Assembly (NCBI RefSeq): GCF_000315425.1
Contig: NZ_JH992922.1
Location: forward strand, 2,202,731-2,266,730
From: Massilia timonae CCUG 45783
GTDB taxonomy: Bacteria; Pseudomonadota; Gammaproteobacteria; Burkholderiales; Burkholderiaceae_D
Direction: 5' to 3'
Length of the DNA stretch: 64,000 bases
Below the pieces are notes generated by a model. The model did not search any database. It had not been told where the DNA came from and was given only the letters and a program-made list of their open reading frames with translations. The position numbers and the translations under genes were made by a program. Numbering within the stretch: the first letter of the stretch is position 1; every line of letters begins with the position of its first letter. Below are positions 5,780 to 12,121 of this stretch, piece by piece.

Positions 5780-7675
5780 TCAGAACAACCCCTCGAACGG
5801 CAAGATATCCACCATCTCCCCCGCCGCGACACTGCCCTGCCCATCATGCAGCACGACCATGCAATTCGCCTCCGACATCGAGCGCAGGATGCCCGAGCCC
5901 TGCGACCCGGTGATGCGCACCTCCGGCTCGCCATCGGCCCCGCGCGCGACGATGCCGCGCTGGTATTCGGTGCGCCCCGGCTTCTTGCGGATCGCCTCGA
6001 TCGAGCGCGCACGCAGCAGCGGCAGCGGCGCCTCGGCGCCCATCATGCGCAGCAGCGCCTCGCGCGCGAAGAAGTAGAACGACACCATCACCGCCACCGG
6101 ATTGCCCGGCAGGCCGAATAAAAATGCGCTGCGGCCGTTGGACGACACCCGGCCGAAGGCCAGCGGCCGGCCCGGACGCATGCCGATCTTCCAGAACGTC
6201 ACGTCGCCCAGTTCGGCCATCACCTGCTTCGTGTAGTCGGCCGCGCCGACCGAGACGCCGCCCGAAGTAATAATGGCGTCGGCGTTCTCGCAGGCGGTGC
6301 GCAGCGCCTCTTCCAAAGCCTCGGGGCTGTCGCGCACCACGCCCATGTCGATGATCTCGCAGCCCAGGCGGGCCAGCATGCCGTAGATCGTGTAGCGGTT
6401 GCTGTCATACACACAACCCTCGTCGAGCGTTTCGCCGATCGAGCGCAGCTCGTCGCCGGTCGAGAAGAAGGCCACGCGCAGGCGGCGCTGCACGGGAATC
6501 TCGGCGAAGCCGAGCGAGGCGCACAGCCCCAGGTCGGCCGGGCGGATGACGCGGCCGGCCTTCAGGGCGGCGCTGCCGGCCTTCAGGTCTTCGCCGGCCA
6601 GGCGGCGGTTGTCCCCTGGACGGATCGCGCCGGCGCGCAGGGTGACGGTATCAATGGTCGTGCTCTCGGCGAATTCCTGCGGCAGCACGCTGTCGCAGCC
6701 GGCCGGCATCACGCCGCCGGTCATGATGCGCACGCATTCGCCAGGTCCTGGCGTGATGTCGAGCGGCTTGCCGGCGTAGGCGACGCCGACCACCTTCAGC
6801 GTGACCGTGCCTTCGGCCGGCAGGTCGCCGCCGCGCAGCGCGTAGCCGTCCATGGCCGAGTTGTCGTGCGCCGGCACATTGATCGGCGAGACCAGGTCGC
6901 GCGCCAGCACGCGGCCGAGGGATGAACGCAAAGCCACCATTTCCACCGCGCGCACGGGTTGCACGAAGTCGCGGATGATGCGCTGGGCGTCCTGCACGCG
7001 CAGCGCGTCCGGATCGTAGCCGTTGATGCAGCTCGCCACCTGGGCCAGGCTGGCAGGGAAGGGCGGGGAAGGGTCGTCCAGCCCGCGCAGCTCGTCCAGG
7101 GTATTGATGTTGCGGAAGGCGTCGGCGTCGTCGAAGACCACCTCGACCGCCTTCAGGTCGCGGTGCCAGCCGTCGACGCGGCGGCCGCCCTCGAGCAGGT
7201 AGGCCGACAGCTGCGGCAGCCGGTCCGCGCGCACCAGGCAGAACACGGGATGCGGCTGCGCGCGCTTGCCGGCTTCCTGCGTCGCGGCGTAGGCGACGTC
7301 GGCATCGGCTTCCTGCAGCGCGGCGAACAGGCGAGATGCCAGGTCGGCCGGCAGGAAGGGCGAGTCGCAAGGGACGGCCAGCAGGTAGGGCGTGGCGCAA
7401 TGGCGCAGGCCGGCTTCGAGACCGGCGAGCGGCCCGGGATAGGGTTCCACTCCGTCCGCGACTTCGTCGGGCAGCACCATCGCGTCGAAAGCGCGGTAGG
7501 CATCCAGGTTGCGGTTGGCGCTGATCGCCACCGGCCCGACCTGCGGCCGCAGGCGCGCCAGCACGTGCTCGACCATGGTGCTCGAGCGGAAGGGCTGCAA
7601 GCCCTTGTCGACATTGCCCATCCGCGAGCCGCGACCGCCCGCCAATACCAGTCCGCTGATCATCCCTTGTTCCAT
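5780..7675 (-). CDS. Fused molybdenum cofactor guanylyltransferase (MobA) - molybdopterin molybdenumtransferase (MoeA)
   Basis: One 631-residue open frame carries two complete enzymes. Residues 1 to about 205 are MobA: the nucleotide-binding LAGGRGSRMG motif, KGLQPF, CDSPF and the C-terminal FRNINTLDEL typical of MobA. Residues about 215-631 are MoeA: HDNSAMDGYALR, FSTGDELR, ITSGGVSVGAADYTK and FGLPGNPVAVMVSF. MoeA inserts molybdate into adenylated molybdopterin, and MobA then attaches GMP to give bis-MGD, so consecutive late steps would sit on one polypeptide. The junction reads DDPSPPFPASLAQVASC with no in-frame ATG and no ribosome site, so separate translation of MoeA looks unlikely. The start overlaps the moaA stop (TAATG), implying coupling. 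A sequencing indel removing a MobA stop is the main alternative. Confidence 0.87.
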   Translation of the reverse strand: MEQGMISGLVLAGGRGSRMGNVDKGLQPFRSSTMVEHVLARLRPQVGPVAISANRNLDAYRAFDAMVLPDEVADGVEPYPGPLAGLEAGLRHCATPYLLAVPCDSPFLPADLASRLFAALQEADADVAYAATQEAGKRAQPHPVFCLVRADRLPQLSAYLLEGGRRVDGWHRDLKAVEVVFDDADAFRNINTLDELRGLDDPSPPFPASLAQVASCINGYDPDALRVQDAQRIIRDFVQPVRAVEMVALRSSLGRVLARDLVSPINVPAHDNSAMDGYALRGGDLPAEGTVTLKVVGVAYAGKPLDITPGPGECVRIMTGGVMPAGCDSVLPQEFAESTTIDTVTLRAGAIRPGDNRRLAGEDLKAGSAALKAGRVIRPADLGLCASLGFAEIPVQRRLRVAFFSTGDELRSIGETLDEGCVYDSNRYTIYGMLARLGCEIIDMGVVRDSPEALEEALRTACENADAIITSGGVSVGAADYTKQVMAELGDVTFWKIGMRPGRPLAFGRVSSNGRSAFLFGLPGNPVAVMVSFYFFAREALLRMMGAEAPLPLLRARSIEAIRKKPGRTEYQRGIVARGADGEPEVRITGSQGSGILRSMSEANCMVVLHDGQGSVAAGEMVDILPFEGLF

Positions 7676-8787
7676 TATCCGCCTATATAGGACATTTCAA
7701 CCTTGCGCGCGCCGTCGCGCTGCCCGATGCCGGTCTCCGCCGTGCGTGTCTCGGAATAACGATCGGCCCGTCCGCGCCACAGCTGGGCGATGGCGCCAGA
7801 CAGCTCGAGGTCGCTGCGATCCGCGCGCAGCAACGCGCGCAGGTCGTGGCCGCGGGTGGCGAACAGGCAGGTATACAGCTTGCCCTCGGTCGACAGGCGC
7901 AGGCGCGAACAGTCGCCGCAGAAGGCCTGGGTGACGCTCGAAATGACGCCGATCTCGCCACCGCCATCCACGTAGCGCCAGCGCGAGGCGGTCTCGCCGC
8001 TGTAGTTGGCCGCGACGGGTTCGAGCGGCAGCTCGGCCGAGATGCGCCGCACGACCTCCTGCGACGGTACCACCTCGCGCATATTCCAGCCGTTCGAGGC
8101 GCCGACGTCCATGAATTCGATGAAGCGCAGGATGGTCGGCGAGCCCTTGAAGTGGCGCGCCATGGGCAGGAGCTGGTCGTCGTTGGTGCCGCCCTTGACC
8201 ACCATATTGACCTTGACCGGCCCCAGGCCGGCCGCGTGGGCGGCGTCGATGCCGTGCAGCACGTCGGCGACGGCGAAGTCGACGTCGTTCATGCTGCGGA
8301 ACACCTTGTCGTCCATCGCGTCGAGCGAGACCGTGACGCGGTCCAGGCCCGCATCCTTCAGCGCCTGGGCCTTGCGCGCCAGGATCGAGCCGTTGGTGGT
8401 GAGCGTGAGGTCGAGCGGACGGCCGCTCGGCGTCGGCAGCGCGCGCAGCATCGCGACCAGGCGCTCGAGGTTCTTGCGCAGCAGCGGCTCGCCGCCGGTC
8501 AGGCGCAGCTTTTCGACGCCGTGCGCGATGAACAGCCGCGCCACGCGCGTGATTTCCTCGAACGACAGCAGGTCGCCGTGCGGCAGGTACTGGTAATCCT
8601 TGTCGAAGACTTCCTTCGGCATGCAGTACACGCAACGGAAGTTGCAGCGGTCGGTGACCGAGATGCGCAGGTCGTGCAGGGGCCGGCCCAGCGCGTCGCT
8701 GAGCAGGCCAGTCGGTGCTTCGGGCACGGCCGGGACCTGCAGCGCGGAAGAGCGCAGGTCATTGATCAGAATGATTTTTTCAGCCAT
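7675..8787 (-). CDS. moaA: GTP 3',8-cyclase MoaA
   Basis: Encodes the 370-residue radical-SAM enzyme that, with MoaC, turns GTP into cyclic pyranopterin monophosphate, the first step of molybdenum cofactor synthesis. The N-terminal cluster motif CNFRCVYC (CxxxCxxC) binds the SAM-cleaving 4Fe-4S cluster. The C-terminal [11 protein letters not shown] motif with a later Cys (YTCLF) supplies the second, substrate-binding cluster, and the protein ends in the Gly-Gly tail needed for activity. It is the upstream gene of a two-gene MoCo unit, coupled to mobA-moeA by a 1-base stop/start overlap. Other MoCo genes are not in this window. Confidence 0.95.
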
Positions 8788-8920: not shown

Positions 8921-11900
8921 TTACTGGCGCGTATCGACCTGCACCAGCGGCTCGTCTACCGGCGCGACCACCGGCTTGCGGGCGCGACCCAGGCGGACCG
9001 GCGGCGCCACGGCCGCTTCCTGGGCGGCGCGCAGTTTTTCAGGGTCGGTCGATGCCAGTTGCAGGCCGGCCTGGGCCAGCACTTCGTCCAGCTTGGCCGG
9101 GGCTTCGACCGGCGCAGCCGCCAGGGCGGCGCCCGGCGCAGGTGCGCTGGCCACAGGCGCGGCGGCTGGCGTCGGGGCGACGCTGACCGCCGGTGCGGCT
9201 GCAGGCGCCGGCTCGACCGCCGACGCGGCGACCGGTTCGGCTGCCGGCGCGGTGTCGACGACGGGCGCCGGCGCCGGAGCAGCCGCAGGTGCATCAGCTT
9301 GAGCGGCCTCGGCGCGTGCTTCGGCAACCGACGCCGCGGTCGGGAACGGGTTCTGCTGCGCAGCAACCGAGGCTGCGGTCGGGAACGGGTTCTGTTGAGC
9401 GGCAACCGAGGCTGCGGTCGGGAACGGGTTCTGTTGAGCGGCAACCGAAGCTGCAGTCGGGAACGGGATCTGCTCGGCAGCAACCGGCGCCGGTGCGACA
9501 GGAGCAGGAGCGGGAGCAGGCGTAGGAGCGGCAGCCTGCTCGGCCTCAGCCTTCGCAGCCGCCACCGACGCCGCGGTCGGGAACGGCCATGCATCGTGCG
9601 TGGCGGCACGTGCCGGCTTGGCCTTCGCGGCCTTGGCGGCGGCGGCGACCTTGGCCGCTTCTTCATCGGCTACCGGGGCGAATGCCGGCGCTTCGTCCGC
9701 ACCTTCCAGCGCCTCGCCCTCGACCTGGTCACGGTCGCGACGATTGCGGTTACGGCCGCCACGGCGACGACGGCGGCGCGGCTCGTCGCCTTCGCCTTCG
9801 ATTTCCTCGCCATCCGGGCCGATCGTCGTCACCGACTTCACGACCTGCTGCACGATTTCCTGGGTGCCTTCCGGACCGCTGGTGCTCACTGCAACAGTGG
9901 CGCTCGACACGACCTGGCTCACGCTGACTTCGTCGAGCTTGGCTTCGATGGCCTGGGTGGTGCGCTCGACACGTTCGGTACGCTCGCGCGGCTGGCGTGG
10001 CTGGCGCTCCTTGCGCTCGCCGCCGCGTTCTGCACGCTCGGGACGCTCGGCGCCCTCGACGCGCGCCGCGCCTTCGACCTGCTCGCGCGGTTCACGCGGC
10101 TCGCGTGGCTTGCGCTCGCGCGGCTGGCGCGGCTGGCGGCCTTCGCGGGCCTCTTCGCCTGGTGCGCCCTTGGCGATTTCCTCGCCCGGCGCGCCCTTGG
10201 CGACCGTGGCCACCGCGTCGCGCTCTTCGCGCTCACGGCCCGGCTTGGCGCCGCGTTCGCCACGCTCGCCGTTGCGGCCACCGTTGCGGCCATTCTTGTT
10301 GCGGTTGTTGCGCTCGCCACGCTCGGCCGGCGCAGGCGCGGCCGGCTTCTCGGCCACCACTGGCGCCGGGGCCGGTTCTTCCGGCTTGCCGAAGAAGAAG
10401 TCGCGCAGGCGGGCGAAGAAACCTTTCTCGGCCGGGGCCGGGGCTGGGGCGGGGGCCGGCGCGGCGGCGGCTTTCGCCGGCTTGGCCGCTTCGCTGCGGT
10501 CGACCACCGGGGCCGGCTGGGCCGGGGTGATGGTCTTGACGACGGCTTCCTGGCGCGGCTTCGCTTCTTCCTTCTGGCGCTTGGCGTAAGCCATGTCGGT
10601 GTCGGCGGTCTCGGCCATCGCATAGCTGGCGTGCGCGTCTTCCAGGCGCGGATCGTCGTGCTTGATGCGCTCGAGCTTGTAGTGCGGGGTGTCCAGATGC
10701 TTGTTCGGGATCAGGATTACGGTGATGCGGTGGCGGTTCTCGATCTTGAGCACTTCGCCGCGCTTTTCGTTCAGCAGGAACGCGGCGACGTCGACCGGCA
10801 CCTGCACGTGGATCGCGGCCGAATTCTCTTTCATGGCCTCTTCCTGGATGATACGCAGGACTTGCAGGGCCGACGATTCGGTATCACGGATGTGGCCGGT
10901 GCCCGAGCAGCGCGGGCAGGTCACGTGCGAGCCTTCCGACAGCGAAGGACGCAGGCGCTGGCGCGACAGCTCCATCAGGCCGAAGCGCGAGATCTTGCCC
11001 ATCTGGACGCGGGCGCGGTCGTGATGCAGGGCGTCCTTGAGGCGCTGTTCGACTTCGCGCTGGTTCTTGGCCACTTCCATGTCGATGAAGTCGATCACGA
11101 TCAGGCCGCCCAGGTCGCGCAGGCGCAGCTGGCGGGCGACTTCGTCGGCCGCTTCGCAGTTGGTGTTGAAGGCGGTGGTTTCGATGTCCGAGCCGCGGGT
11201 GGCCCGCGCCGAGTTGACGTCGATGGAAACCAGGGCTTCGGTGTGGTCGATCACGATCGCGCCGCCCGATGGCAGCGGCACGGTGCGCGCGTAGGCGGTC
11301 TCGATCTGGTGTTCGATCTGGAAACGCGAGAACAGCGGCACGTCGTCGCTGTAGCGCTTCACGCGGTGCGCCATGTCGGGCATCACGTGGCTCATGAACT
11401 GCTGGGCCTGTTCGTAGATCTCGTCGGTGTCGATCAGCACTTCGCCGATGTCGGGCTGGAAGTAATCGCGGATGGCGCGGATGACCAGCGACGACTCCTG
11501 ATAGATCAGGAAGGCGCCCGGGGCCGACTTGCCGGCGCCTTCGATCGCGCGCCACAGCTGCATCAGGTAGTTCAAGTCCCACTGCAGCTCTTCGACGGTG
11601 CGGCCGATGCCGGCGGTGCGGGCGATCACCGACATGCCTTGCGGCAGGTCGAGCTTGTCCATGGTTTCGCGCAGTTCCTGGCGCTCTTCGCCTTCGACGC
11701 GGCGCGACACGCCGCCGCCGCGCGGGTTGTTCGGCATCAGGACCAGGTAGCGGCCGGCCAGCGAGATGAACGAGGTCAGGGCGGCGCCCTTGTTACCGCG
11801 TTCTTCCTTCTCGACCTGGACCATGATTTCCTGGCCTTCCTTCAGCGCTTCCTTGATGGTGCAGTTGCGCACGTCGACGCCCTCGCGGAAATACGAGCGG

Positions 11901-12121
11901 GCGACTTCTTTGAAGGGGAGGAATCCGTGGCGGTCTTCGCCGTAGGATACGAAGCAGGCTTCGAGGGAGGGTTCGATGCGGGTGATGACACCCTTGTAGA
12001 TGTTGGACTTGCGTTGCTCGCGACCGGCGGTCTCGATATCGATGTCGATCAGTTTTTGACCGTCGACAATCGCTACGCGCAGCTCCTCTTGCTGCGTAGC
12101 GTTAAACAACATACGTTTCAT
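8921..12121 (-). CDS. rne: Ribonuclease E
   Basis: Encodes a 1066-residue endoribonuclease E, the core of mRNA decay and of rRNA and tRNA processing. The N-terminal half is the conserved catalytic part: S1 RNA-binding domain (about residues 35-120), the 5'-sensor/RNase H-like region, the DNase I-like site with [12 protein letters not shown] and DFIDM acidic residues, and the zinc-link CPRCSGTG that joins dimers. From about residue 510 on the protein is low-complexity: Arg/Glu-rich blocks that may bind RNA, then a Pro/Ala-rich tail with repeats of PFPTAASVA. Such C-terminal regions scaffold the degradosome in other proteobacteria. A long leader with hairpins precedes it, compatible with RNase E autoregulation, which is inferred. 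Confidence 0.95.
9323..9484. repeat. 39-bp tandem repeats inside rne
   Basis: Four near-identical 39-bp units encode the 13-residue repeat [13 protein letters not shown] near the end of RNase E, the last unit varying to [10 protein letters not shown] fifth related PFPTAASVA copy lies at about 9561-9590. The middle copies are almost identical in DNA, suggesting recent slippage or unequal recombination. The in-frame length preserves the reading frame. Confidence 0.85.

Follow-up and report, generated by a model that had tools for sequence, protein, structure and literature searches.

Does the Massilia timonae CCUG 45783 genome encode MobA and MoeA, two proteins of late molybdenum cofactor (Moco) synthesis, as a single polypeptide, and, if so, what might the joining of the two do? 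The question is raised by a reading frame found in a stretch of 64,000 nucleotides of this genome, which is hereafter referred to as the window. The ORF listing of the window contains a single ORF of 631 amino acids at 7675..5780 on the minus strand, starting with an ATG. The MobA half (molybdenum cofactor guanylyltransferase; 7082..7675, minus strand, residues 1–198, TIGR02665) is followed by a linker, LDDPSPPFPASLAQ (7040..7081, minus strand, residues 199–212), and by the MoeA half (molybdopterin molybdotransferase; 5783..7039, minus strand, residues 213–631, NF007960), with the stop codon at 5780–5782. Pfam domains above gathering scores are NTP_transf_3 (residues 8–168), MoeA_N (226–389), MoCF_biosynth (404–541) and MoeA_C (556–627). 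Among NCBIfam models, TIGR02665 (MobA) matched residues 6–196 with 204.9 bits (cut-off 151.85; model positions 1–185 of 186) and NF007960 (MoeA) matched residues 225–627 with 564.2 bits (cut-off 440; model positions 1–401 of 401). The original prediction of one 631-residue frame with a complete MobA and a complete MoeA is thus confirmed, both parts scoring above curated cut-offs. Its assignment of the two enzymes to late bis-MGD synthesis agrees with these matches and with the established pathway, in which molybdate is inserted by MoeA, and MobA joins two Mo-MPT and attaches GMP. Directly upstream of the fusion lies moaA (GTP 3',8-cyclase; 7675..8787, minus strand), which matches TIGR02666 with 379 bits, above cut-off. 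The moaA stop (TAA) overlaps the ATG of the fusion in the sequence TAATG, an arrangement that makes coupled translation of the two genes probable.

The comparison with other Massilia genomes that had been called for by the original prediction revealed that the fusion is shared. A single frame, free of stops and spanning practically all of the query, was present in 58 of 61 genus genomes (M. timonae and 60 others), a match of some kind being found in 60. The three exceptions are G038, with the gene in three overlapping pieces and two frames, G055, where the contig ends within the gene, and G006 (83% complete), which had no match. The G038 locus (L120) is the only one seen in a congener with frame breaks; its matches lie in two frames of a single-contig assembly, which may reflect either sequencing error or decay. 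A set of named loci, which includes many of the same assemblies, so that the two counts are not independent, was restricted to the best 80 of 214 relatives; one stop-free frame was found in 76 of these. The 76 fused loci are labeled Massilia, Telluria, Rugamonas, Pseudoduganella and Janthinobacterium, some of them Duganella, Herbaspirillum, Oxalobacteraceae, Burkholderiaceae or Pseudomonadota. The other four, with one to three internal stops, bear the labels Oxalicibacterium, Herminiimonas (two) and Undibacterium.

The top-scoring solved structures for the MobA and MoeA halves were 1fr9 (MobA) and 1fc5 (MoeA), both from E. coli, and each was aligned to its half. The MobA half contains motifs LAGGRGSRMG, PCDSP and NINTL, and alignment with 1fr9 revealed that its presumed nucleotide- and metal-binding motif residues are present. 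Of the motif positions checked, 13 out of 15 are invariant in all 81 fused sequences. MobA positions K24, D104, N189 and N191, which align with presumed E. coli catalytic residues, are kept in 81/81 sequences, R15 in 72/81 and N54 in 76/81. MoeA positions D276, T319, E409, D449 and D480, aligned with presumed E. coli active-site residues, are also kept in 81/81. Both lysines of the E. coli KPGKP motif are arginines here, R500 (80/81 fused sequences) and R503 (81/81). The N-terminal tail of the MoeA half, VASCINGYDPDALRV, resembles the sequence close to the beginning of MoeA in relatives that encode it separately.

Exactly one TIGR02665 match (E 1e-20 or better) was found in 59 of the 61 genus genomes, at the fused-gene loci; at this threshold there was no match in G006 and G055, both of which are incomplete. 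The M. timonae genome has seven matches to PF00384, a molybdoenzyme family. Six of these loci were scanned as fragments, for which reason all six scores are below whole-protein cut-offs; the best models were formate dehydrogenase alpha (three loci, one of them scoring close to nitrate reductase models), DMSO-reductase family, FdhF/YdeP family and NuoG, the last of which is not a molybdoenzyme. Since the fused MobA half is the sole MobA found in a genome that carries PF00384 molybdoenzyme genes, it is likely the source of bis-MGD in this organism. The seventh PF00384 match (L245, 193..3267, minus strand, G000:C5) is a 1024-residue frame that resembles formate dehydrogenase and contains a single in-frame TGA within VUHGPTVAG, a selenocysteine enzyme motif; the frame probably encodes such an enzyme.

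We consider it likely, with a probability of roughly 0.75, that the gene is genuine and encodes one bifunctional late enzyme, whose MoeA part would make Mo-MPT and whose tethered MobA would make bis-MGD. The gene would have been formed when the mobA stop and the moeA start, in neighbors located behind moaA, were lost in frame. In the resulting protein the C-terminal MoeA would put molybdate into adenylated molybdopterin, yielding Mo-MPT, and the N-terminal MobA would take Mo-MPT, join two of them and add GMP to produce bis-MGD. We infer activity of both halves and a benefit of the tether for the handover. Direct handover from MoeA to MobA within the fusion is plausible because such a transfer has been published: one report cites the passing of Moco/Mo-MPT from Rhodobacter MoeA to MobA and suggests that MoeA, MogA, MobA and XdhC form a complex (PMC2997495), and in another MoeA1 and MobA of Methylorubrum give a two-hybrid signal (PMC13197769). 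By holding MobA beside the site of Mo-MPT synthesis, the tether would favor bis-MGD over other uses of Mo-MPT.

The stretch between residue 196 and the YDP motif of MoeA has ten different lengths among 58 congeners (a count that leaves out G038 with its frame breaks), and the frame is never broken. Differences in the linker at the three codon positions amount to 0.226, 0.178 and 0.420, a coding pattern, in 173 pairs from 53 species, which share ancestry and hence are not independent. The dN/dS ratio was 0.37 for the linker, 0.13 for the MoeA tail, 0.17 for MobA and 0.14 for MoeA. The linker is therefore variable in length yet under purifying selection. The longest joints, 41 residues from the MobA end to YDP and with an in-frame ATG within, were seen in L129 (G015) and L137 (G002). 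At the other extreme, fusions of genus g6 (L058–L062, L115, L116) are without the linker and the MoeA N-terminal tail, and the MobA end abuts the MoeA core.

Spread of the fusion was analyzed in samples of the family, order and phylum. At least 30 fused genes were found in the family sample (145 genomes, 44 genera): 8 in g1, 5 in g4, 7 in g40, 7 in g6, one among the seven g12 genomes, one among the seven g7 genomes, and one in G078 of g19. In the order sample (300 genomes) there were at least five whole-query stop-free matches, four of them in genus g1 and the fifth in G479, from another family. Among the matches listed for the phylum sample (398 genomes; E 1e-75 or better, a threshold that would miss very divergent fusions), whole-query matches occurred only in G000 and G012, both of g1 (Massilia). 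Nine loci, selected for a long MoeA frame or for a match along the full span, were inspected: four (L252, L253, L254, L259) have, by eye, a MobB-like start before MoeA, and none of the other five shows MobA and MoeA in one uninterrupted frame. A search of plasmids gave 200 records, all below 60% identity, 13 of which cover at least 80% of the query; a fused relative may be among them. The view that MobA and MoeA are usually encoded separately thus fits the order and phylum samples, but within the clade the fusion is the normal state.

A total of 135 loci was classified as 82 fused (frameshifted G038 included), 44 separate and 9 without mobA near moeA, which were left out. In the 44 separate loci of related Burkholderiales the same genes lie in the same order and on the same strand, with moaA upstream in most, but a stop codon and an own moeA start stand between them. 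The two genes are already in one frame in 15 of these 44 pairs, a set partly chosen because the match spanned the query; one third is the chance expectation. Separate genes are also found inside the clade, in 6 of 7 sampled g12 genomes, where they overlap by ATGA (4/6) or are spaced by about 20 bases (2/6). Relatives in which two separate genes occupy this position, which had been considered a sign against the fusion, were therefore absent from the genus sample but present in other genera; this bears on the timing of joining and not on the reality of the fusion here. The natural fusion and relatives with the same genes apart form a ready pair to test MoeA-MobA tethering.

On a tree of MobA+MoeA (125 rows) at least four changes between the fused and separate states are needed. 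Of the 81 fused rows, 78 are in one group of 84, which also holds six separate g12 rows; G078, G191 and G479 are fused yet lie outside of the main group, on long branches and with placement flagged as unsure. A gyrB+rpoB tree of 30 genomes (frames set by tblastn; one gene each for G129 and G134; uneven letter composition in three rows) has three changes of state, and a single clade of fused species was rejected when all of them were forced together (p-AU 0.0029). The MoaA+MobA+MoeA tree (61 rows) has two changes; here holding the fused rows together costs 26 log units, with a borderline p-AU of 0.051. The g12 genomes, G180 included, are not one clade on either the gyrB+rpoB or the moaA-mobA-moeA tree, though their unity was not rejected (p 0.21 and 0.09). 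Since fused species do not form one clade, joining or splitting must have happened more than once: these trees would be accounted for either by one fusion followed by at least one split or by several fusions. In g12, separation of the genes may be either secondary or ancestral, in the latter case with several fusions having occurred around this group.

The same sequence would result if a stop codon had been lost neutrally, and we regard neutral joining as nearly as likely as handover. The fusion would then be real and both halves would work, but adjacent genes would simply have lost a stop and a start, with equal dosage as the most that was gained. We give this explanation somewhat less than an even chance. 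The proportion of separate pairs already in one frame agrees with it, as do the drift of linker length and sequence, the separate genes that persist or returned in g12, and the linker of G191, which contains two in-frame ATGs, as if an old start survived. What it accommodates less readily is that MobA and MoeA are consecutive and in contact in the pathway, as described in two reports (PMC13197769, PMC2997495), and that nearly all species sampled from a large clade have retained the fusion, with several changes of state. The variable linker and the separate genes of g12 indicate in any case that the tether can be dispensed with.

Given that MoeA is dimeric and that two Mo-MPT are required for bis-MGD, a dimer of the fused protein could have two Mo-MPT within reach of two MobA. 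The bifunctional enzyme might, tentatively, be taken further, as a repeatedly arisen covalent factory in which bis-MGD is assembled without free Mo-MPT. If true, repeated joining in Burkholderiales would have been selected and not accidental. One source states that two Mo-MPT must be bound on MobA and that bis-Mo-MPT formation is not completely resolved (PMC9103625).

A second MoeA-like match was found in 59 of 61 genus genomes (in pieces in G060), so that the fused MoeA need not be the source of Mo-MPT. In M. timonae this second MoeA stands alone, scores 385 bits against the family cut-off of 440, and adjoins moaD and a threonine-synthase-like gene (ThrC by eye). A MocA-like protein is encoded elsewhere in the genome (80.9 bits, below the cut-off of 186). 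Both genes would suit a division of labor in which the fused copy is reserved for bis-MGD and the second MoeA, encoded with moaD, feeds other cofactor forms; specialized MoeA paralogues are reported for Methylorubrum (PMC13197769). We find this doubtful, since relatives with separate mobA and moeA also carry second MoeA-like matches, which hence do not follow the fusion.

It is improbable that the open frame yields two proteins, through an internal MoeA start at a GTG or through proteolysis of the linker. As the original prediction stated, the joint is without an in-frame ATG, but in-frame GTG codons exist at residues 213, 227 and 238, the first two of which could be starts of a separate MoeA. 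However, GTG 213 is replaced by a codon other than ATG, GTG or TTG in 27 of 58 genus members and GTG 227 in 11 of 58, so that a possible start is not consistently conserved among congeners at either position. No Shine-Dalgarno-like motif precedes GTG 213 (codons 227 and 238 were outside the motif census), in a test of low power, as just 4 of 44 separate moeA genes were positive. Of the 82 fused loci, 16 have an in-frame ATG near the joint, in no case accompanied by a Shine-Dalgarno-like motif, compared to 43 of 44 separate loci, four with the motif; with ATG, GTG and TTG all considered, 3 of 82 fused loci have a codon with the motif, which by the same weak test leaves some room for internal starts. 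Linker residues 201–206 have pLDDT below 50 in an AlphaFold model of moderate quality (mean pLDDT 77.6, pTM 0.49; the arrangement of the halves is not trustworthy), as a cleavable linker might, but purifying selection on the linker in the fused frame argues against two products. Finally, joining of two genes by a sequencing or assembly error, such as an indel at the joint, can be dismissed because the same open joint is present in 57 further congeners as well as in the named loci.

Fusions among late Moco proteins are already known. Gephyrin and Cnx1 of eukaryotes carry MogA-like and MoeA-like parts, two consecutive late steps on one chain, and are often cited for product handover. Compared to MobA-MoeA, adenylylation is joined with MoeA there, one step earlier, and MobA is absent. 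A second MogA-like domain was not found in the window protein by Pfam, its one MoCF_biosynth stretch (404–541) being inside MoeA. NCBIfam has models for MobB-MoeA, MobA-MobB and MoaC-MobA fusions; none of the 23 NCBIfam models that match the window protein is a MobA-MoeA model. The MobB-MoeA fusion (NF011060, PRK14491) likewise has MoeA as a C-terminal half joined in frame to a late-step protein, but its N-terminal half is MobB and not a guanylyltransferase. The window protein scored 471.5 bits with NF011060 (cut-off 532), over the MoeA part only, and Pfam detected no MobB domain in it. The MobA-MobB fusion (NF011056, NF011057) resembles the window protein in that MobA forms the N-terminal half and a second late-step protein follows, but the partner is MobB and there is no MoeA; an example is Geobacter GSU3147 (PMC2700814). 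The MobA-MoeA pairing is a variant for which we found no paper naming it in the title or the start of the abstract, which is weak evidence of absence as most subscription journals are outside the coverage. For annotation, the sole MobA of such genomes may hide in a gene named moeA, or the reverse.

A parallel joining, in a similar gene order, was seen in the four loci L252, L253, L254 and L259, from the same class or phylum, where the MobB-MoeA-like frame (MobB by eye) is directly preceded by a match to MobA. Elsewhere in the window, a frame at 8921..12121 (minus strand), RNase E-like by eye, has several near-identical FPTAASVA units in the C-terminal part of its translation.
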